Below are positions 18,939 to 42,037 of a stretch of 64,000 nucleotides of DNA, in pieces. The notes under the pieces were generated by a model that was not told the DNA's origin, did no database searches, and saw only the letters and a program-made list of their open reading frames with translations. The DNA lies in NCBI RefSeq assembly GCF_003574135.1, contig NZ_AP018341.1, positions 2,765,740 through 2,829,739 on the forward strand, given 5' to 3'. Both the position numbers and the translations under genes were made by a program. This DNA comes from a cyanobacterium endosymbiont of Rhopalodia gibberula. Its GTDB lineage: Bacteria > Cyanobacteriota > Cyanobacteriia > Cyanobacteriales > Microcystaceae. The number at the start of each line of letters is the position of its first letter. The first letter of the stretch is position 1.

Positions 18939-20789
18939 ATGACGAATCAAATAGTTTACGAAATTGCCGCATTGATGCTTGTTTTAGGAGCTTCTTGGGT
19001 TAACTATTGGCAACTTCGTCGTAGTAGCACGAAACGGGAATTAGAACTAGTTGACAAACAAAAACAAATTAACCAAGAGAAGGAAACTCTACATGAGCAG
19101 CTAACTCGTGCTGTTATGTCCAATGAAACGTTAACTCATGATCAAGAGCAAATCCAACATCAACTTGATGAAGTCTCTTGTCAACTTACTCATCTAAGAG
19201 AGACTATCAATCAAATAGAATTTGATAAGAATAATTTAGCTAAAAATTTAGAGAAAAAGCAGCAAGAAGTTACTATTTTAATCAAAAATTTAGATAAAAA
19301 CAAAGAAAAATTTATATCCTTGGAAAAGGAGCTTAAAGAATCAGAAAGATTAAGATATAAATTACAAATTAAGCAACAAGAGGAAGTTTCTTCCCTCCAA
19401 CAGCAACTTGACAGTTTATGTCGAGAAAAGGACTACACAGTCAATACATTACAAAAAAAATTAGAGAAGATTACTACTTTACAACAACAAGTAGATAGTT
19501 TGACTCAAGAAAAGAAAAAACTTGAAGAGATTCTCGATAAAAGAAATCAGCGAATAGTGTCTTTAGAAATGGAACTTCAGGGGTTAGCCGGAGAAAAAGA
19601 AGCTTTAGAAGCTACTCTACAACAAAAAGTAGATAGTTTAACTCAAGAGAAAAAAACTTTTGAAGAAACTATAATTAAAGAACGTGAACAACTAGCTACT
19701 TTGCAAAAGCAAGCTAAAGAAAAAGAAGCTTTAGAAGCTACTCTACAACAAAAAGTAGATAGTTTAACTCAAGAGAAAAAAACTTTTGAAGAAACTATAA
19801 TTAAAGAACGTGAACAACTAGCTACTTTGCAAAAGCAAGCTAAAGAAAAAGAAGCTTTAGAAGCTACTCTACAACAAAAAGTAGATAGTTTAACTCAAGA
19901 AAAAAAAACTTTTGAAGAAACTATAATTAAAGAACGCGAACAACTAGCTACTTTGCAAAAGCAAGCTAAAGAAAAAGAAGCTTTAGAAGCTACTCTACAA
20001 CAAAAAGTAGATAGTTTAACTCAAGAGAAAAAAACTTTTGAAGAAACTATAATTAAAGAACGTGAACAACTAGCTACTTTGCAAAAGCAAGCTAAAGAAA
20101 AAGAAGCTTTAGAAGCTACTCTACAACAAAAAGTAGATAGTTTAACTCAAGAAAAAAAAACTTTTGAAGAAACTATAATTAAAGAACGCGAACAACTAGC
20201 TACTTTGCAAAAGCAAGCTAAAGAAAAAGAAGCTTTAGAAGCTACCCTACAACAAAAAGTAGATAGTTTAACTCAAGAAAAAAAAAATCTTGAAGAAACT
20301 ATAATTAAAGAACGTGAACAGGCGTCGAATTTAGAAGAAAAAATCAAAGGGTTAGAAACGCAACAATCGAATATTAAAGATATAAGTATTGAAGATAGTG
20401 TTGCTAAACCTTATGATATTCTATCTCAATCACAATCGATATTAGAAGAGACTCAAAAAGTTAGGAGAAAATCAACTAGAGGAAATACACGAGAAAACAA
20501 AGAACACAAAGAAAGTTTAAAACAAGAGGGTTTATTTGAGGGTAAAAAAGTAGTTGTATTAGGGAATTTATCCCAAATGAATCGAGATGAAGCTAAGTCG
20601 TATATTCAAAAAGCAGGAGGAACTTTAAGCAGCTCCCCTAGTTTCAAAACTCACTACGTTGTTGTGGGAAAAACTCCTGGTGAGAAACTAAGAAAAGCTC
20701 AAAAGTTTGGTATTTGTCAACTCTCAGAAACTGAATTTATCGAACTACTTGAATCGGCTGGAGTTTATGTTGATGTCAACTCTAAATAG
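18939..20789 (+). CDS. membrane-anchored coiled-coil protein with C-terminal BRCT domain
   Basis: From the ATG behind a strong AGGAG site the protein has 616 residues. A single N-terminal membrane helix (residues about 4-20, IVYEIAALMLVLGASW) is followed by more than 400 residues of heptad-rich coiled coil. This contains about 5.7 tandem copies of a 42-residue unit with core EALEATLQQKVDSLTQEKK. A charged linker leads to a C-terminal BRCT domain (about the last 80 residues: F-E-G-K-K-V-V-V-L-G-N-L near the start, G-G-T-L-S-S-S-P, T-H-Y-V-V-VG, the K-L-R-K-A-Q-K-F-G-I helix and the L-S-E-T-E-F segment). BRCT domains bind DNA ends or phosphopeptides and in bacteria are best known from NAD-dependent ligase. 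The combination with a membrane anchor and coiled coil is unusual; no function is assigned. A role linking DNA to the membrane is speculation. recF is upstream. Confidence 0.85.
   Translation: MTNQIVYEIAALMLVLGASWVNYWQLRRSSTKRELELVDKQKQINQEKETLHEQLTRAVMSNETLTHDQEQIQHQLDEVSCQLTHLRETINQIEFDKNNLAKNLEKKQQEVTILIKNLDKNKEKFISLEKELKESERLRYKLQIKQQEEVSSLQQQLDSLCREKDYTVNTLQKKLEKITTLQQQVDSLTQEKKKLEEILDKRNQRIVSLEMELQGLAGEKEALEATLQQKVDSLTQEKKTFEETIIKEREQLATLQKQAKEKEALEATLQQKVDSLTQEKKTFEETIIKEREQLATLQKQAKEKEALEATLQQKVDSLTQEKKTFEETIIKEREQLATLQKQAKEKEALEATLQQKVDSLTQEKKTFEETIIKEREQLATLQKQAKEKEALEATLQQKVDSLTQEKKTFEETIIKEREQLATLQKQAKEKEALEATLQQKVDSLTQEKKNLEETIIKEREQASNLEEKIKGLETQQSNIKDISIEDSVAKPYDILSQSQSILEETQKVRRKSTRGNTRENKEHKESLKQEGLFEGKKVVVLGNLSQMNRDEAKSYIQKAGGTLSSSPSFKTHYVVVGKTPGEKLRKAQKFGICQLSETEFIELLESAGVYVDVNSK
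19595..20325 (+). repeat. 126-bp in-frame tandem repeat, about 5.7 copies
   Basis: The core AGCTTTAGAAGCTAC recurs at 19601, 19727, 19853, 19979, 20105 and 20231, exactly 126 bp (42 codons) apart. Copies are nearly identical. Copies 1, 2 and 4 share CAAGAGAAAA and AACGTGAAC, while copies 3 and 5 share CAAGAAAAAA and AACGCGAAC, implying duplication of a 252-bp dimer. The last copy carries CTACCC and diverges after about 20285. All changes keep the frame. Confidence 0.95.
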
Positions 20790-33562: not shown

Positions 33563-35077
33563 CTAAAACCTCTCTATCAGATAATCGCCCACCCGCAACG
33601 CATTAGCAATAATTGTTAATGCTGGAGGAACCCCTGAACTTGATGGAAAGAAACTACTATCAACAATATAAAGATTTTCAAGATCATGAGTACGACAATT
33701 CAAGTCAAGAACAGAATTAGTTGGATCTTCCCCAAAGCGACAAGTACCACATTGGTTAGCAACCGCCTGTATAGTTACTTCCCCACGAGGGTAAACTGCT
33801 AGCTTCTCAAAAACAGAATTTCCCAGCTTATTTTCTCCCTTTTTTAACACATCTATCCAGCGATAAATGAGGCGATCATGTGCCTCAATATTATTTGGGG
33901 TGTATTCAACATATAGCTTATCCCCACTGACTCTTACACGATTATTCGGATCAGGCAAGGTTTCCGTATACATCCACCAACCGATAGATCGTTTTGCTAA
34001 CTGTTTAAGTCCAAAACCAGGCATACCTTTGGCTAAAACTGACAAAATGGGGGGAGATTCGGCAAAAATAATATCTTGAAGCAGTCCCCCCGTATTCTCA
34101 ATATGACCCATTGGGTAAGGGAAATTTTCGTCACCCCAGTAAAAATCATTGATACTAACTGTTCTGAGAAATTGTCCCGAATTTGACTTGGCACTCAATT
34201 CTACCATTGCGGTTTGATGATGTTTCATGAAATTACGCCCCACCTGATCAGAACTATTCCCCAATCCGTTAGGATGTTTATGATTAGCAGAACGTAACAG
34301 TAAAGCCGATGAATTGATAGCACCGCACGCTAAAACAATTATATCTCCAAAAAATAGGTAAGATTGACCGCAAATTTTTGCTTCTACTGCTCTAACTGCT
34401 TCTCCTGAGGAATTAGTCAGCAAACAAACCACCTTTGCTGAAGTTTTAAGGGTCACATTGGAGTGTTTCAATGCCGGCACAATACCAAAGACTTCCGAGT
34501 CTCCTGTAGGATCATCTTCTGAGCGAGTTAAACTCAGAGGTAATGTCGCGGGACGTAAACCCTGTTGGGTTATCGCATCAACAATCTTTTGAATTTGGGG
34601 CTCGTTCTCTATCGGGGGTAAAGGATAATCCGAACTATGAAAAGGTTCAGTAGGATCATCCCCTGTTCGCCCATGAACCATGTAAAGTTTTTCCGCTTCG
34701 GTATAATAGGGTTCAAAGTCGGTATATTTTAGTCCCCAAGCTGGTGAAATTCCTTCTTGATGTTCCACGTTTTCAAAGTCTTTTTCCCGCATCCTAACTA
34801 ATGCCGCGCCGTAGATTTTTGTATTTCCACCAACAGCATAATTTGTCTGAGGAGAAAACGTTCCTCCATCCTTGTCATACCAGCGTTCTGGCGCACGATA
34901 ACGTTCTTTTCTAAAAACGTCAACGTTGGCTCTATTTTGTTCCTCCAGGGGCATAAAGTCTCCCCTTTCTAGAATTAAAATCCTCTTACCCGTAGGGGCT
35001 AGTTTATTAGCTAGAGTTCCTCCTCCTGCCCCCGTACCAACAATAATCACATCATAATGTTGATCATCAATAATCAT
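33563..35077 (-). CDS. GMC-family FAD-dependent oxidoreductase
   Basis: A 504-residue flavoprotein of the glucose-methanol-choline family. Seen are the N-terminal FAD motif VIIVGTGAGGGTLA (about 10-23), the E-R-G-D block at 37-40, NYAVGGNTKIYGAAL, an internal IIVLACGAINSSALL stretch, and the C-terminal block with Y-I-V-D-SSFFPSSSGVPPALTI-I-A-NALR. The last resembles the GMC_oxred_C region where the catalytic His/Asn would lie; here Ser-rich residues precede it and the His is not evident. Substrate unknown. It is 38 bp downstream of ctaE and last in the oxidase operon, which suggests it may feed electrons to the quinone pool, an inference only. Confidence 0.82.
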   Translation of the reverse strand: MIIDDQHYDVIIVGTGAGGGTLANKLAPTGKRILILERGDFMPLEEQNRANVDVFRKERYRAPERWYDKDGGTFSPQTNYAVGGNTKIYGAALVRMREKDFENVEHQEGISPAWGLKYTDFEPYYTEAEKLYMVHGRTGDDPTEPFHSSDYPLPPIENEPQIQKIVDAITQQGLRPATLPLSLTRSEDDPTGDSEVFGIVPALKHSNVTLKTSAKVVCLLTNSSGEAVRAVEAKICGQSYLFFGDIIVLACGAINSSALLLRSANHKHPNGLGNSSDQVGRNFMKHHQTAMVELSAKSNSGQFLRTVSINDFYWGDENFPYPMGHIENTGGLLQDIIFAESPPILSVLAKGMPGFGLKQLAKRSIGWWMYTETLPDPNNRVRVSGDKLYVEYTPNNIEAHDRLIYRWIDVLKKGENKLGNSVFEKLAVYPRGEVTIQAVANQCGTCRFGEDPTNSVLDLNCRTHDLENLYIVDSSFFPSSSGVPPALTIIANALRVGDYLIERF

Positions 35078-35095
35078 AATTGCCTCTATTCTACT

Positions 35096-35122
35096 TATTA
35101 CCTATTACCTATTACCTATTGC
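35096..35122. repeat. heptanucleotide tandem repeat in the ctaE-GMC spacer
   Basis: The unit CCTATTA (TAGGTAA on the minus strand) is repeated about 3.5 times and includes the ctaE stop codon. Short tandem heptamers of this kind are known from cyanobacterial genomes. Confidence 0.7.
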
Positions 35123-35730
35123 CATAGATAAATTAAGATAAATAAAATAATCCAAATAACATCAACAAAGTGCCAAAATAAAGAGGTTGCCATCACGCCA
35201 AAGTGTCCCCCTTCGTAATTCTTTGGAAAAAAAGAACGACCCAACATCAAAGTTTGTAAAATAACACCTATGAGAACGTGCAACCCATGAAATCCTGTTA
35301 GGAGATAAAACATTCCCCCAAATACGCCAGAGGTGAAGCGGAATTCTAGATTACTCCATTCAAGCATTTGTCCAATCAAAAAGTAGCTTCCCATGGTCAT
35401 AGTCATTAACAGAAAAAACCGAAAAGCCCAAAATCGACTGTTTTCTAAACACTTTTCAGCAATATAGATAACAAAACTACTAGACACTAAAACCGCCGTA
35501 TTAATTGCAGGTTCCTTAATTTCTAATCCTGTAACTCCTGCCGGCAGCCAATCAACTGCAGTAGTTTTGTAGACAAAATATCCGACAAAAAAACTGAGGA
35601 AAATAATACTCTCTGATAGAAGAAACACGACAAAGGCAAAGAGACTATTGCCCTCTGAATCGTGTCCATGTTTTTCTATTGCCCCATGCAATTGTTCTGA
35701 AGAAACCGAACTGTACATCATACTCTCCAA
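35116..35730 (-). CDS. ctaE: haem-copper oxidase subunit III
   Basis: Subunit III of the terminal oxidase, 204 residues with five membrane helices, the short five-helix form. Features are F-A-F-V-V-F-LLSESIIFLSFF near residue 30, the GFHGLHVLIGV block, and the C-terminal A-T-S-L-F-W-H-F-V-D-V-I-W-I-ILF. It lies 65 bp after ctaD and 38 bp before the GMC gene. No frameshift or missing block, so it appears functional. Confidence 0.93.
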   Translation of the reverse strand: MESMMYSSVSSEQLHGAIEKHGHDSEGNSLFAFVVFLLSESIIFLSFFVGYFVYKTTAVDWLPAGVTGLEIKEPAINTAVLVSSSFVIYIAEKCLENSRFWAFRFFLLMTMTMGSYFLIGQMLEWSNLEFRFTSGVFGGMFYLLTGFHGLHVLIGVILQTLMLGRSFFPKNYEGGHFGVMATSLFWHFVDVIWIILFILIYLWQ

Positions 35731-35795
35731 ATTTTCAAGTCAGGGAATAAGAAATTAATAGCAACAATCGAAAACTATTAACTGTTAACTATTTA

Positions 35796-37469
35796 CTACA
35801 TCCTAATCATTGCTTCCTCATTAGCAACTAATGGATCTGATTTACCATAACCATAGGGACCAGAAACAATCACAGGAATATCTTCAAAATTTTCTACACT
35901 AGGAGGAGAGGAAATTATCCACTCTAACCCAATAGCACGCCAAGGGTTATTAGAGGCGATCGGTCCTTGCATCCAAGAACTAACCATATTGACAATAAAA
36001 GGCAATGTAGACATTCCTAGTAAAAATGCCCCCAAACTCGCTACCACGTTCCAAAAAGTATATTCAGGGTCATAAGAAGCTACCCGACGTAACATTCCCT
36101 GTAACCCCAAAGGGTGCATGGGTAAAAAGTTTAAATTCGTACCAATAAAAGCTAACCAGAAGTGTACCTGTCCCCAACTTTCATGATACATTCGCCCTGT
36201 CATTTTAGGAAACCAATGATAAATAGCGGCATACATTCCCATCGTGACTGTTCCATAGAGGACATAATGGAAATGTCCTACAACAAAATAGGTGTTATTC
36301 ACATGAATATCCACGGGGACTGCTGACAACATAATGCCCGTTACCCCAGCAAAAATAAACATAATCAACGCCCCCAAAGCGAATAACATAGGGGTGTTAA
36401 GGCGTAATTTCCCTCCCCAGATAGTAGCTACCCAAGCAAACACTTTAATTCCAGTGGGAACTGACACACACATGGTAGACAACATAAACACCATCCGCAT
36501 CCAACCTGGGGTTTCACTAGCATACATATGGTGTACCCAAACTAAGCCACTAACCCCAGCAATGAGTAATGAAGAAATTGCAACAATTTTATACCCAAAC
36601 AAAGGTTTACGGGAATAAACCGGGAAAATTTCTGAGAAAATACCAAAGATGGGCAGGATAATTACATATACCGCAGGGTGGGAATAAAACCAGAAAAAGT
36701 GTTGAAATAAGACCGGGTTTCCTCCTCGAGAGGGGTCAAAAAAGCTGGTTCCTACAGTGACATCAAATAGTAACATCACTGCCCCTGCGGTGAGGGCTGG
36801 TAAGCCAAATAATTGAATAATTTGCGCGCTAAAAACTGCCCAAACAAAAATTGGCATCCGAAAGAAGGTCATTCCAGGGGCGCGCATTTTTACCACAGTA
36901 GTTACAAAATTGACCGCTCCCATAATCGAGGAGATTCCAGAAATAGCCACTGCTAACAACCAGAGAACCTGTCCTGTGATCAACTGTTCCGTGGGGTTTT
37001 GAATACTAACTGGAGGGTAAGACCACCAACCAGCCTGAGCTGATCCACTGGGAACAAAAAAGCTGGCTAACATTAATATTCCCACCACGGGTATCATCCA
37101 AAAAGCGGCCGCATTAAGACGAGGAAAAGCCATGTCTTTTGCCCCTATCATAATAGGAACCAAATAGTTAGCTAACCCGACTAATGAGGGAAATGTCCAC
37201 AAAAACAGCATGATAGTGCCATGCATGGTGAATATTCCGTTGTACAAAGTTCGATCAACTAAATCTGCTTCCGGGGTAATTAATTCCCCCCTAATGACCA
37301 TGGCGAAGGTTCCACCAATGAGGAAGAAAACAAAAGAAGTAACTAGGTATTGAATCCCAATGACTTTATGATCTGTACTAAAGCTAAAATATCTTCTCCA
37401 ATTTCTGGCAGATAGGTCCGGGGAGCTGTCTGTAACAATGTTTGTGTCTTTTACTTTACGATCTGTCAT
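35796..37469 (-). CDS. ctaD: haem-copper oxidase subunit I, A2-like
   Basis: Catalytic subunit that reduces O2 to water, 557 residues with about 12 membrane helices. Ligands visible: low-spin haem His83 (TMHGTIM), CuB His264 and crosslink Tyr268 in FYSHPAVY, His313-His314 (VHHMYAS), and His399/His401 (VVGHFHYV). The usual HPEVY glutamate is Ala266, while Tyr262-Ser263 precede the His. This YSHP arrangement is typical of A2-type oxidases. With the CuA-less subunit II it matches the cyanobacterial alternative terminal oxidase (ARTO/cox3 type). Retention suggests strong O2 consumption, useful if the cell fixes nitrogen. Confidence 0.95.
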   Translation of the reverse strand: MTDRKVKDTNIVTDSSPDLSARNWRRYFSFSTDHKVIGIQYLVTSFVFFLIGGTFAMVIRGELITPEADLVDRTLYNGIFTMHGTIMLFLWTFPSLVGLANYLVPIMIGAKDMAFPRLNAAAFWMIPVVGILMLASFFVPSGSAQAGWWSYPPVSIQNPTEQLITGQVLWLLAVAISGISSIMGAVNFVTTVVKMRAPGMTFFRMPIFVWAVFSAQIIQLFGLPALTAGAVMLLFDVTVGTSFFDPSRGGNPVLFQHFFWFYSHPAVYVIILPIFGIFSEIFPVYSRKPLFGYKIVAISSLLIAGVSGLVWVHHMYASETPGWMRMVFMLSTMCVSVPTGIKVFAWVATIWGGKLRLNTPMLFALGALIMFIFAGVTGIMLSAVPVDIHVNNTYFVVGHFHYVLYGTVTMGMYAAIYHWFPKMTGRMYHESWGQVHFWLAFIGTNLNFLPMHPLGLQGMLRRVASYDPEYTFWNVVASLGAFLLGMSTLPFIVNMVSSWMQGPIASNNPWRAIGLEWIISSPPSVENFEDIPVIVSGPYGYGKSDPLVANEEAMIRM

Positions 37470-37592
37470 GTATTTCTTCCTGACATAGAATGCGGCTAAT
37501 TATAATCATTTGATGCTGGTTACAAATACTAATGCTCGATAAAAGAAGAAAAAACCGAGGGGATATTTTCAACTGCGAACCACGAACCCAGA

Positions 37593-38480
37593 TTAGGTAG
37601 GATAATTGACTACTGGCGGTTCTGCTGGAACAATTGTCGGCCAGCCAGTTTTAAATGCTTTTTCTGTTTGTTGGAAATATTCTGAAGCTGCAACATTATT
37701 TGCGGGAGACGGTTTGCGTTTTGCTGCTTCAAATAACCACTTTTGATAAGCTTCAGGGGACTCCACTACTACATCTGTTTGCATCGTGGCAAAATAAGTT
37801 CCACTAAATTGAGAATCTCTTAAGCGATATTTCCCTTCCTTAATGGGAGTAAATTCAAAGTCAGTGGTTTTGTTAGGAACGATATCTTGCTTAACTCGAA
37901 AAGCTGGAATGTATAAGCCATGCAGTACATCTTTTGATTTCAATGTCAAACGAACTCTCTGGTTTGCGGGAAGATGCAATTCCGTACTGGTTACATCACT
38001 TTCAGGATAACGAAATACCCAAGACCATTGTTCTGCAACCACTTCAATGGCTTGACTAGGTTCTGGGATAACAGTAGCAGTTTGTCCAGAAACGATTGGT
38101 AAGGGGTTCAGTTCCATTGACCCGCGAATAGCGATTTGATCGTAAACCTGATAGCTATATCCCGCTAACCAAAATACCAAAAGAATGGGTATGGATGTCC
38201 AAACAACTTCTAGGATAACGTTTCCTTCAATATGAGGTCCATCACTATAATCATATTTAGCCGCTCGTTGAAAAATAACAGAGTAGATGATTACTCCAGT
38301 AATTCCTAAAAAAATAAAAGTGCCTAAAGTCACGAGAAAAGCAAACAATTTGTCAATTAATAGAGATTCTGCCGAAGCTTGAGGAGGAAACCAAGAATAA
38401 GAAACTTTTCCCATCCAAAGACTAATCAATGTTAGGGCAATCGCATAAACAATCAAAAATAAGATATTGCGAAGTTTCAT
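37593..38480 (-). CDS. ctaC: haem-copper oxidase subunit II lacking CuA ligands
   Basis: Subunit II, 295 residues: N-terminal signal-like helix (1-22), two membrane helices (about 43-70 and 88-108) and a periplasmic cupredoxin domain with Q-W-S-W-V-F-R-Y-P at 151-159. The CuA motif CxExCx3Hx2M is replaced at matching spacing by Asp222, Gln224, Ser226 and Phe230; only Met233 and His187 of the six ligands remain. This is not random decay, since the fold is intact; loss of CuA is known in the cyanobacterial ARTO and in quinol oxidases. The enzyme therefore probably takes electrons from quinol, not cytochrome c. It is followed by ctaD after 123 bp. Confidence 0.93.
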   Translation of the reverse strand: MKLRNILFLIVYAIALTLISLWMGKVSYSWFPPQASAESLLIDKLFAFLVTLGTFIFLGITGVIIYSVIFQRAAKYDYSDGPHIEGNVILEVVWTSIPILLVFWLAGYSYQVYDQIAIRGSMELNPLPIVSGQTATVIPEPSQAIEVVAEQWSWVFRYPESDVTSTELHLPANQRVRLTLKSKDVLHGLYIPAFRVKQDIVPNKTTDFEFTPIKEGKYRLRDSQFSGTYFATMQTDVVVESPEAYQKWLFEAAKRKPSPANNVAASEYFQQTEKAFKTGWPTIVPAEPPVVNYPT

Positions 38481-38543
38481 AATTAATAAATATCCAGAAC
38501 AATAAAAGTAATCCTTAGTTAATAGAAGTTTTACTCAAAAACG

Positions 38544-39185
38544 TCATGATTTTGATTTATACCCTTCAGGGGAGTTGACTTCTGACATCAATAACTTAGA
38601 CTCTTGTCCTGATTCTAACAATTGGTCAGCTGTATTGTGGACCCCAAATTCTGCAGCAATTTGCGCCCCCAAGGTTCCATGAAGGAACAACAGAAATAGC
38701 ATAAAGATACCCACCCCTAAATAAACCCACTGCACTTGGATGGTTCTTTCTCTACGCCAGAGAAACCGTTGGAATCCTCTCCAGATAGTCATTCCAATCA
38801 TGAAAGCAAGGAGAAATACTCCCCCTACACCATGCCACAACATGGTGTCCATTGCACTAAGTCCCCAAGCACTTTCAACATCAGTGATTGGGTTGGCTAA
38901 CATCATCTCGTAAAATCCGGCTGCTACTGTGAAAACAGTGATAATCGAGGCTGCTAAAAGATTGTACCAACCGACATCAAAAAAATTGCTACGGGTAGCG
39001 GGAATCGCAAAGAATTTAAACACAGGTTTTTGGAACCCAAACATTGCTCCCAGGGTATCAAAAGCAATGGCGACTATAAACAATCCTATAGTCAGATGAA
39101 CTAGATTAGGATGAATAGGGACTGAATAAGGAAGTCCATTTGCGCCCAAATCAGCCGTGAATGTATCAATTACTTCAGGATTCAT
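38544..39185 (-). CDS. DUF2231 membrane protein (oxidase operon, second)
   Basis: A 213-residue protein with about four membrane helices. The DUF2231 pattern is clear: P-I-H-P-N-L-V-H-L-T-I-G-L-F near residue 23, FFDVGWYNLLAAS, and M-D-T-M-L-W-H-GVGG with a conserved His that could bind haem. Its start codon overlaps the stop of the preceding DUF2231 gene by one base (TAATG), implying translational coupling. It is 63 bp before ctaC. The family is common next to oxidase genes; a role as a haem-binding or assembly partner is inferred. Confidence 0.85.
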   Translation of the reverse strand: MNPEVIDTFTADLGANGLPYSVPIHPNLVHLTIGLFIVAIAFDTLGAMFGFQKPVFKFFAIPATRSNFFDVGWYNLLAASIITVFTVAAGFYEMMLANPITDVESAWGLSAMDTMLWHGVGGVFLLAFMIGMTIWRGFQRFLWRRERTIQVQWVYLGVGIFMLFLLFLHGTLGAQIAAEFGVHNTADQLLESGQESKLLMSEVNSPEGYKSKS

Positions 39186-39691
39186 TATTGTAAAACTCCC
39201 TCCTTAATGGCTTCAACAACAGGGACGGTGTGGAGTCCATATACCCACACTAATTCGTCTCCGAGATAGACTTGAATACCAACAATTGTCACTAGAACTA
39301 ATACCAATCCTAGATAAGAAACTGGCAGCTTTTCGGGGGTTTTTGAGCGAATTACATAACGCCACCCCGTGATTCCCGCAATGATTCCTGACAATGACCA
39401 ACCAATCAACGTATGAAGATGTAATACAGGTTGTACTGCTTCATAAGGTTGGGCTAACCCCGCTTCATATTGACCGAAAATAATAGCTATAAAAATAGAA
39501 GCGGTAGCAACCAACATATTCCACCAACTTACCTCATATAAACGAGTGTTGCGAGTGAAGTAACCAATTACATCGCATGAAAAAGCAAACAAAACCATTG
39601 CAATAACGAAATGTACAACGATGGGATGAATGGTATCGGGATAGGGTAAATTATGGTCATTTAAAGGTGGAAGATAATTAAACATAAACAT
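39185..39691 (-). CDS. DUF2231 membrane protein (oxidase operon, first)
   Basis: A 168-residue paralogue of the next gene, with four membrane helices. It has the same His-containing blocks: D-T-IHPIVVHFVIAMVLFAF near 20-37, Y-E-V-S-WWNMLVATAS, and V-L-H-L-H-T-L-I-GWSL. Its Met start (MFMFNYLPP) follows a weak purine stretch; the alternative second Met is two codons in. It heads the oxidase operon, whose promoter must lie in the 39692-39900 region. A TATACT on the minus strand at 39806-39811 is a weak candidate -10 box. Confidence 0.85.
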   Translation of the reverse strand: MFMFNYLPPLNDHNLPYPDTIHPIVVHFVIAMVLFAFSCDVIGYFTRNTRLYEVSWWNMLVATASIFIAIIFGQYEAGLAQPYEAVQPVLHLHTLIGWSLSGIIAGITGWRYVIRSKTPEKLPVSYLGLVLVLVTIVGIQVYLGDELVWVYGLHTVPVVEAIKEGVLQ

Positions 39692-40552: not shown

Positions 40553-40600
40553 ACACATCTTAAATCAAGATTGTTTAAACAATCTTGATTTAAGATGTGT
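40553..40600. repeat. 48-bp perfect loopless palindrome
   Basis: Arms of 24 bp meet without a spacer at GATTGTTTAAACAATC (centre 40576/40577). It is 69 bp upstream of the NDH-2 start. The arms contain no mismatch. Confidence 0.92.
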
Positions 40601-40669: not shown

Positions 40670-42037
40670 ATGGTTAATCAACAAAAAAATAAAACTGACC
40701 TTCATCATGTTGTGATTATTGGTGGTGGTTTTGGGGGACTTTATGCTGCTCAAAAACTTGCCAAAGCCCCCGTTAAAGTCACCCTGATTGATAAACGTAA
40801 TTTTCACGTTTTTCAACCATTGCTGTATCAAGTAGCTACGGGAGGATTATCCCCGGCTGATATTTCTTCTCCCTTACGGGCTGTGTTGAGTAAGAGTAAA
40901 AATACGGAAGTACTAATGGGAGAAGTATCCACTATTGATCCCGAAAAACAAACGGTGAAACTCCGTTACCGAGAAATTGAATATGATTCTCTGATCGTGG
41001 CGACAGGAGTAACCCATCAATACTTTGGCAATGACTGGGAAGAAAAAGCTCCCGGACTAAAAACTATTGAAGACGCCCTAGAAATTCGTCAGCGGGTATT
41101 TATCGCCTTTGAGTCAGCTGAAAAAGAACCTAACCCTGAAAGAAGAAAAGACTGGTTAACCTTTGTCTTAGTGGGTGGGGGTCCGGCTGGGGTAGAATTA
41201 GCTGGATCCTTAGCTGAACTAGCTCATGGAACCCTAAAAGAGGATTTTCGTAATATTGATACTTCCCAAGCTGAAATCGTACTCTTACAAAGTCCTCAGT
41301 ATATTTTACCCACTTATCCTCCTCATCTCTCCCTTAAAGCTCAGAAATCCTTAGAAAAGTTAGGGGTGACAGTCAAAACTGGCGCAAGAGTTACTGACAT
41401 TAAAGGTCAGCTGGTAACTTACAGTCAGGGCGAAACTATCGATCAAATTCGCACTCGTACAGTTCTTTGGACAGCAGGGATGAAAGCATCTGCTATGGCT
41501 AAGACCTTAGCAGATTGTGCTAAGGCTCAACTAGATAAAGCCGGACGGGTTATGGTTGAACCTAACTTCAGTTTATCCGAGTATCCCAATATCTTTGTTA
41601 TTGGAGATTTAGCCCATTATCCTGACAAAAAGGGTGGTATTTTGCCTGGTATTGCCCCCGTTGCCATGCAAGAGGGGGAATATGTAGCGCGTTTTATCCG
41701 CAATAGTCTCCAAGGCCGTCCTTTATCTCCTTTCAAATATACTGACTGGGGAAACTTAGCGGTGATTGGAAAACACCAAGCTGTTGTTGATATGGGGTGG
41801 TTGAAACTATCTGGTTTTCTCGCTTGGTTTGTCTGGTTGTTTATCCATGTATTCTACCTACTTGAATTTGACAATAAATTAATTGTCATGATTCAGTGGG
41901 CGTGGAGTTATTTCACGGATAGCAAGGGTGCACGTTTAATTACCACACCCGGAAAAAATCCTGAAATCAAGCTTGAGGATGATCATGAAACGATTGTTTG
42001 TAAAACAGGAGCTGCTCACCATGTAGAAGTTAATTAA
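40670..42037 (+). CDS. type II NAD(P)H:quinone oxidoreductase
   Basis: Single-subunit NDH-2, 455 residues: the N-terminal FAD motif VVIIGGGFGGLYAA near 15-28, H-V-F-QPLLYQVATGGLSPADI (typical of NDH-2), the second nucleotide-binding motif VLVGGGPAGVELAG near 165-178, the FVIGDLAHYPD FAD block, and a C-terminal hydrophobic segment (LAWFVWLFIHVFYLLEF) that anchors it to the membrane. It passes electrons from NAD(P)H to quinone. With the probable quinol oxidase nearby this could form a short non-proton-pumping-entry chain. Which of the cyanobacterial NdbA/B/C types it is cannot be decided here. Confidence 0.9.
   Translation: MVNQQKNKTDLHHVVIIGGGFGGLYAAQKLAKAPVKVTLIDKRNFHVFQPLLYQVATGGLSPADISSPLRAVLSKSKNTEVLMGEVSTIDPEKQTVKLRYREIEYDSLIVATGVTHQYFGNDWEEKAPGLKTIEDALEIRQRVFIAFESAEKEPNPERRKDWLTFVLVGGGPAGVELAGSLAELAHGTLKEDFRNIDTSQAEIVLLQSPQYILPTYPPHLSLKAQKSLEKLGVTVKTGARVTDIKGQLVTYSQGETIDQIRTRTVLWTAGMKASAMAKTLADCAKAQLDKAGRVMVEPNFSLSEYPNIFVIGDLAHYPDKKGGILPGIAPVAMQEGEYVARFIRNSLQGRPLSPFKYTDWGNLAVIGKHQAVVDMGWLKLSGFLAWFVWLFIHVFYLLEFDNKLIVMIQWAWSYFTDSKGARLITTPGKNPEIKLEDDHETIVCKTGAAHHVEVN

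Follow-up and report, generated by a model that had tools for sequence, protein, structure and literature searches.

A GMC-fold flavoprotein with an apparently eroded active site is a co-inherited neighbor of the CuA-less terminal oxidase ARTO in cyanobacteria

ARTO, also known as cox3, is a terminal oxidase that is found in about half of the cyanobacterial genomes sampled here (154 of 290) and has been connected in published work with both the protection of nitrogenase and the reduction of iron. We analyzed the ARTO operon on a stretch of 64,000 nucleotides, hereafter the window, from a cyanobacterium endosymbiont of Rhopalodia gibberula (contig NZ_AP018341.1, positions 2,765,740 to 2,829,739). 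The last gene of this operon encodes a GMC-fold flavoprotein, and one new point of this work is that GMC is a widespread co-inherited neighbor of ARTO. A conserved and, by all appearances, catalytically eroded flavoprotein beside ARTO in many lineages offers a concrete handle on what ARTO needs. The explanation to which we incline, with modest confidence, is a type-1 ARTO operon in which a CuA-less O2 reductase, with a repurposed GMC flavoprotein as its partner, lowers O2 near nitrogenase.

Six minus-strand genes lie head to tail in the order DUF2231-DUF2231-COX2-COX1-COX3-GMC (Table 1). Open reading frames (ORFs) and Pfam domains agree on this unit as the initial annotation had drawn it, with a coupled DUF2231 pair and GMC closely behind COX3. 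The host genome is a single 3.02-Mb contig; among the same-genus relatives (n = 6), three have genomes of 4.6-5.2 Mb and three of 2.5-3.1 Mb. The ratio of nonsynonymous to synonymous substitution rates (dN/dS) is 0.04-0.19 across the six operon genes, measured against up to four same-genus relatives and, for COX1, against two only. In addition, we surveyed 80 named cyanobacterial ARTO loci, the 80 that match the window best among at least 571 relatives, a choice that leans to close ARTOs. Gene order and strand are constant for the genes found in these loci, with both DUF2231 genes in 79 of the 80, COX1 in 76, COX3 in 70, and GMC in 38. Some loci are cut by contig ends. In two loci (L101 and L105) the COX1 match is truncated and COX3 is absent from the nearest 9 kb or so, and the reading frame of L105 ends early.

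The initial annotation had posed the question of whether GMC is ever linked to ARTO in relatives, and the neighborhood survey answers it in favor of linkage. A class-wide sample of 290 cyanobacterial genomes was scored for GMC at E <= 1e-150 and for ARTO subunit II at E <= 1e-62, the CuA-less state of the latter matches being seen in aligned examples and not in all 154 genomes. Both genes are present in 126 genomes, GMC only in 3, ARTO subunit II only in 28, and neither in 133 (totals of 129 for GMC and 154 for ARTO subunit II), a co-occurrence with a Fisher p of about 1e-49 that is not corrected for kinship. The three GMC-only genomes carry ARTO COX1-COX3 directly before GMC. Positions for both genes were available in 112 of the 126 genomes, and GMC lies 3.2-7.2 kb downstream on the same strand in 98 of them; four of the 14 unlinked genomes were inspected.

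The named loci give a finer view of the distribution. Seventeen of the 80 are unscorable for GMC because of contig ends or a lack of COX3; GMC stands behind subunit III in 38 of the remaining 63 and is not there in 25. Outside Nostocales, 29 of 31 scorable loci have GMC behind COX3, and the two exceptions are metagenome-assembled genomes (MAGs) of Cyanothece (L044) and Prochloraceae (L088). Within Nostocales the count is 9 of 32: Scytonema, Calothrix, Rivularia, Rhizonema, Iningainema, and Cyanomargarita are the GMC-bearing genera, and the 23 loci without GMC include Nostoc, Dolichospermum, and Fischerella. Since nine Nostocales loci still have the gene, GMC loss is common but not general in heterocyst formers. 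On a subunit I tree of 61 rows, from which two scored loci with interrupted COX1 were excluded, GMC presence takes four changes; the mean after shuffling is 18.7, and none of 500 shuffles came as low. In 36 loci, GMC distances correlate with ARTO gene distances at r 0.65-0.74, compared with 0.58-0.82 among the ARTO genes themselves, and a Mantel test on GMC versus ARTO distances gave 0 of 2000.

The FAD-binding GxGxxG motif and the C-terminal GMC domain are present in the window GMC protein (Pfam, alignment). Its nearest solved relatives, in sequence and in fold, are the FAD fructose and glucose dehydrogenases (FDH and GDH; PDB 7w2j and 6a2u). The His of HxxGT and the Asn/His of NPxLT are presumed to be catalytic in this family, and their positions were matched to the FDH variants H1147A and N1190A. 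In the window protein, the catalytic His is replaced by N441 and the catalytic Asn by P484. Among 56 ARTO-type GMC rows, which include near-identical copies with two identical pairs among them and five rows from genes apart from ARTO (L038, L127, L129, L131, and L132), the Asn is kept in 1 and the two residues together in none. The cysteine loop at the position of the FDH/GDH Cys-rich segment, which we take to be a 3Fe-4S cluster site, is kept in 6 of the 56 rows and lost in 50; no Cys occurs at residues 179-213 of the window protein. The same pair of substitutions, N and P, is found in free-living Crocosphaera watsonii (L045), and the catalytic positions are N and T in Okeania and N and S in Pseudanabaena.

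Five outside paralogs keep the cysteine loop, one of them with a Cys-to-Phe change (L142; F was accepted in place of the third Cys of the loop pattern). Both catalytic residues are kept in 4 of 4 scorable paralogs; the L134 paralog ends at the locus edge, which leaves its catalytic residues unscored. A quick GMC tree was rooted on the paralogs by choice and carries a long-branch warning among them. On this tree the loop changes once, a branch whose Shimodaira-Hasegawa-like approximate likelihood-ratio support (SH-aLRT) is 100 sets the 50 rows without the loop apart, and the difference between His and not-His takes four changes. The dN/dS of GMC is 0.05-0.10 against four same-genus relatives. 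Alignment and tree together indicate that the window GMC descends from an ancestor with the catalytic His, the catalytic Asn, and the cysteine loop, and that its active site was eroded stepwise under strong purifying selection. Because the erosion is stepwise and under strong selection, we favor a new role over decay, and the protein has probably been repurposed for a different job. Separately, a second GMC gene with the cysteine loop was observed 3-5 kb past the ARTO operon in three loci (L134 12691-13974, L135 193-1728, and L136 13188-14768), and the second GMC proteins of L135 and L136, complete at those sites, have canonical catalytic residues.

The oxidase itself was assigned by the initial annotation to ARTO/cox3, and this identity holds: subunits I-III are present with intact heme and CuB ligands, CuA is lost, and two DUF2231 genes lie directly upstream. 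In subunit II, D222, Q224, S226, and F230 stand at exact spacing where the Cox1 subunit II of the same genome has C, E, C, and H, as the initial annotation had read from the letters and alignment now confirms. The corresponding stretch reads DSQFSGTYF in the window and CAELCGAYH in the other oxidase of the genome, so that the ligand set C-x-E-x-C-x3-H is absent from the window subunit. Two of the six CuA ligands, H187 and M233, are kept, and the other four are lost. When the window protein is aligned with 17 relatives, S226 and F230 show no variation and D222 almost none. Because these relatives share the pattern, the loss of CuA characterizes the family and is no sign of decay, as first proposed. 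Whether subunit II groups with CuA proteins, a question that the initial annotation had raised, was judged by identity only: it is 43-93% identical to ARTO relatives versus 36-42% to cox1 relatives, and it is 36% identical to its own Cox1 counterpart versus 25% to bo3.

Subunit I retains the histidines of heme and CuB, the cross-link tyrosine, the D-channel aspartate, and the K-channel lysine in the alignment to Escherichia coli CyoB. The motif YSHPAVY, which in the A2 subfamily of heme-copper oxidases stands in place of the GHPEVY glutamate, was found in subunit I as first noted. It is no ARTO marker, however, because the genome's own CuA-type cox1 carries it too. The residues R71, D75, H98, and Q101 (E. 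coli numbering), which we take to be those of the bo3 quinone site, are I, F, L, and G in the window, and none of the four is present in any of 7 other ARTO subunits I that were aligned. With the host's own Cox1, subunit I shares 55% identity, versus 36% with CyoB, and it scores 667.5 bits with the CtaD model, just missing the cut-off of 670.75, versus 434.2 bits each with QoxB and CyoB. Both subunits I and II are thus nearer to the genome's own cytochrome c oxidase than to bo3, and the term "quinol-type" in the bo3 sense, which the initial annotation had used, is not supported. On these alignments, the ARTO family appears to be a CuA-less relative of the cytochrome c oxidases, for which a "quinol-type" label by analogy with bo3 would not be justified and should not be assumed.

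The DUF2231 proteins are regular companions of ARTO and have conserved histidines. In protein 1, H22, H27, H93, and H154 are kept in 102, 104, 105, and 105 of 105 homologues, and in protein 2, H25, H30, H118, and H183 are kept in 106 of 106. Protein 1 was modeled as a four-helix protein with a mean predicted local distance difference test score (pLDDT) of 77.5, and its VIA alignment rows are four-helix bundles of a generic kind, with oxidase subunit III chains among them. The order of the helices hints that the conserved histidines lie near one membrane face. The two proteins may, as the conserved histidines hint, bind heme or metal and aid electron entry or assembly.

These elements can be joined into a mechanism. 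The operon is the type-1 ARTO (cox3) of a N2-fixing cyanobacterium, a close relative, in the same genus, of an Epithemia endosymbiont, and COX1, COX2, and COX3 form what is by sequence a heme-copper O2 reductase with an intact catalytic center and no CuA. Because CuA is absent, the usual electron uptake from cytochrome c or plastocyanin is improbable; the donor is probably plastoquinol, at a site that differs from the one in bo3. The DUF2231 pair could aid electron entry or assembly through its histidines. GMC would be a FAD-bearing partner of ARTO that acts in assembly, in regulation, or by a changed flavin reaction, and not as a classical alcohol or sugar dehydrogenase. The oxidase would lower O2 near nitrogenase and yield ATP. 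The host genome has nifH; no gene for subunit I of cytochrome bd was found in it. Removal of O2 for nitrogenase is plausible and was proposed for this group in PMC12903740.

Several observations weigh against this explanation. The window GMC structure model is poor (pLDDT 61.5), and the DUF2231 protein 1 model had 0 of 179 Foldseek matches at E <= 0.001. The first catalytic His is retained in 14 of the 56 GMC rows, so that some members of the family may still be catalytically active. A GMC match at E <= 1e-150 was missing from all 16 ARTO-bearing genomes of family f25 and from all 4 genomes of genus g13, whose ARTO subunit II is only 45-47% identical. Since f25 and g13 have ARTO without GMC at the thresholds used, ARTO can do without GMC in places. 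GMC lies apart from ARTO in four genomes (G231, G281, G187, and G178) and on another contig in a fifth, the MAG L044/G005.

Two alternative views of the linkage are unlikely but deserve some weight. In the first, a GMC dehydrogenase that lost its canonical active site has given rise to a dedicated flavin-bearing subunit or assembly factor of ARTO throughout cyanobacteria, one that supplies or gates the electrons of this CuA-less oxidase by a novel route and that many heterocyst formers dropped later. In the second, GMC has no functional tie to ARTO and is a passenger under a common promoter, a view with which the genomes that have GMC away from ARTO and the ARTO-bearing f25 genomes without a GMC match are in keeping. 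Against a passenger stand the ARTO genes present in all 129 GMC-bearing genomes (126 with subunit II, 3 with COX1-COX3) and the divergence of GMC, which follows that of the ARTO genes.

Rather doubtful is the idea that GMC is an alcohol or sugar:quinone dehydrogenase feeding the quinone pool used by ARTO, close to the extra electron donor suggested by the initial annotation. FAD glucose and fructose dehydrogenases are respiratory enzymes. Their place as the nearest solved relatives of GMC and the tight linkage to an oxidase speak for it, but N441 and P484 stand in place of the His and Asn, and inspection by eye showed neither a signal peptide in the window GMC nor a gene for a cytochrome c subunit in the operon. 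Because the catalytic pair is complete in none of the 56 rows and the cysteine loop is gone from 50, a classical dehydrogenase feeding ARTO is unlikely, and the proposed donor role by classical chemistry is disfavored.

A further alternative leaves GMC aside and holds that the main task of ARTO is to reduce Fe(III) or to act as an electron valve rather than to protect nitrogenase, which we consider distinctly unlikely for this operon. The same six genes occur in two small-genome loci of family f29 (L134 and L135). We guess that this family represents picocyanobacteria. Parts of PMC10119275 report ARTO in marine picocyanobacteria, among them low-Fe Prochlorococcus, link it to iron reduction, and cite a Synechocystis ARTO mutant impaired in Fe reduction. 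On the other side, ARTO of Anabaena is described in PMC6616624, as far as excerpts of that paper go, as heterocyst-specific and needed for diazotrophic growth, and the window genome has nifH. Finally, the view that the CuA and GMC sites were lost by relaxed selection in a decaying endosymbiont operon, to which the small genome lends itself, has almost no probability left and is refuted by the relatives: CuA is also lost in the 17 aligned proteins, many from genomes of 4-8 Mb, Okeania, Pseudanabaena, and free-living Crocosphaera watsonii lost the same or equivalent GMC residues, and dN/dS is low over all six genes.

Table 1. Genes and intergenic features of the ARTO operon in the window.
Feature	Position	Strand	Basis
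DUF2231 membrane protein 1 (168 aa), first in unit	39185..39691	-	Pfam PF09990 1.3e-42
DUF2231 membrane protein 2 (213 aa), 1-bp overlap with first	38544..39185	-	Pfam PF09990 4.3e-37
ARTO subunit II (COX2 fold, CuA site lost)	37593..38480	-	Pfam, alignments
ARTO subunit I (heme-copper oxidase, YSHPAVY)	35796..37469	-	Pfam 6.1e-160; alignment to E. coli CyoB
ARTO subunit III	35116..35730	-	Pfam PF00510 2.3e-30
GMC-fold flavoprotein (504 aa)	33563..35077	-	Pfam; PDB sequence and fold matches; family alignment and tree
COX3-GMC gap, 38 bp	35078..35115	.	sequence
7-bp tandem repeat TACCTAT x 4.1, overlapping COX3-GMC gap	35092-35120	.	repeat scan

Possible control sites were also considered. In the window, promoter-like sites are at chance level (26 versus 25.1 expected) and terminator-like sites are above it (12 versus 6.0 expected), with none of the 12 in the COX3-GMC gap. 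Excerpts of PMC3898017 report that NtcA binds the promoter of the Anabaena alr2729-coxC3 operon. One GTAN8TAC match lies 756 nt upstream of the first operon gene, and two close relatives have the motif at other distances (-616 in G001, -101 in G003); the other close relatives examined are without it. Because such matches are at chance in the window (15 versus 12.75 expected), no claim of NtcA control is made.

An NDH-2-like gene at window positions 40670-42037 (plus strand) is divergent to the operon, and a palindrome with 20-bp arms lies between the two at 40554-40599. Seven loci from close relatives (L043, L044, L045, and L145-L148) retain the gene with 84-97% identity; L043 and L148 are from the same genome, and L145-L148 contain only part of the gene. 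A homologue with 42% identity has the same divergent position in L135. The neighbor is not general, being found in 3 of the 80 named loci; its product could reduce the same quinone pool as ARTO. Farther away, a 126-bp tandem repeat of 5.8 copies with 98% matches was observed at window positions 19592-20320.

The host genome has two COX1-family genes, and PF00115 finds two in each of the genomes G000, G001, G003, and G004, at the cox1 and ARTO places. Diazoplasts are described in parts of PMC11070190 as having two oxidases, one of them cbb3-type, a label that may be a misnamed ARTO. The ARTO coxA gene is split in two named loci. In Nostoc calcicola FACHB-3891 (L049 11947-13904), an insert of about 1.9 kb carries, by eye, a 467-aa recombinase-like ORF and is a candidate heterocyst interruption element; such elements were surveyed in PMC4874684, in which the word coxA occurs. 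In the Prochloraceae MAG MO_167.B51 (L088 9394-12127), an insert of about 2.7 kb with a 674-aa reverse-transcriptase/HNH-like ORF resembles, by eye, a group II intron.

ARTO is already known in this endosymbiont group; new are the co-inheritance of GMC, the loss of its catalytic residues, and the absence of the bo3 quinone site. No published GMC-ARTO link was found in the open-access PubMed Central literature with supplements excluded, which is weak evidence of absence, and by term counts "GMC" does not occur in the main texts of PMC12903740, PMC10119275, and PMC11070190. A GMC gene of Synechococcus elongatus is placed near glycogen genes in PMC11889915, and ARTO is not mentioned in the relevant part of that paper.

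Compared with known systems, the window GMC shares the Rossmann/FAD region with FDH and GDH (PDB 7w2j and 6a2u), but it is without their catalytic His/Asn, their Cys-rich segment, and a gene for a cytochrome partner. Subunit II is CuA-less in both E. coli bo3 and Bacillus aa3-600. The window operon shares the heme-copper catalytic core with both, is without the quinone-site residues of E. coli bo3 (CyoABCD), and was compared with Bacillus aa3-600 by model and sequence score only. The ARTO of Rhopalodian (Epithemia/Rhopalodia) endosymbionts in PMC12903740 (RGRSB-1814 to 1816), which that paper classes as type 1 and proposes to protect nitrogenase, is the same kind of oxidase in the same organism group; the main text of that paper (supplements excluded) does not mention a GMC gene, whereas GMC adjoins ARTO in the window. 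The cox3 operon of Anabaena PCC 7120 (alr2729-alr2730-coxB3-coxA3-coxC3; excerpts of PMC6616624), like that of the window, has two membrane-protein genes followed by subunits II, I, and III with CuA lost, but it consists of five genes, and the window has a sixth, GMC.

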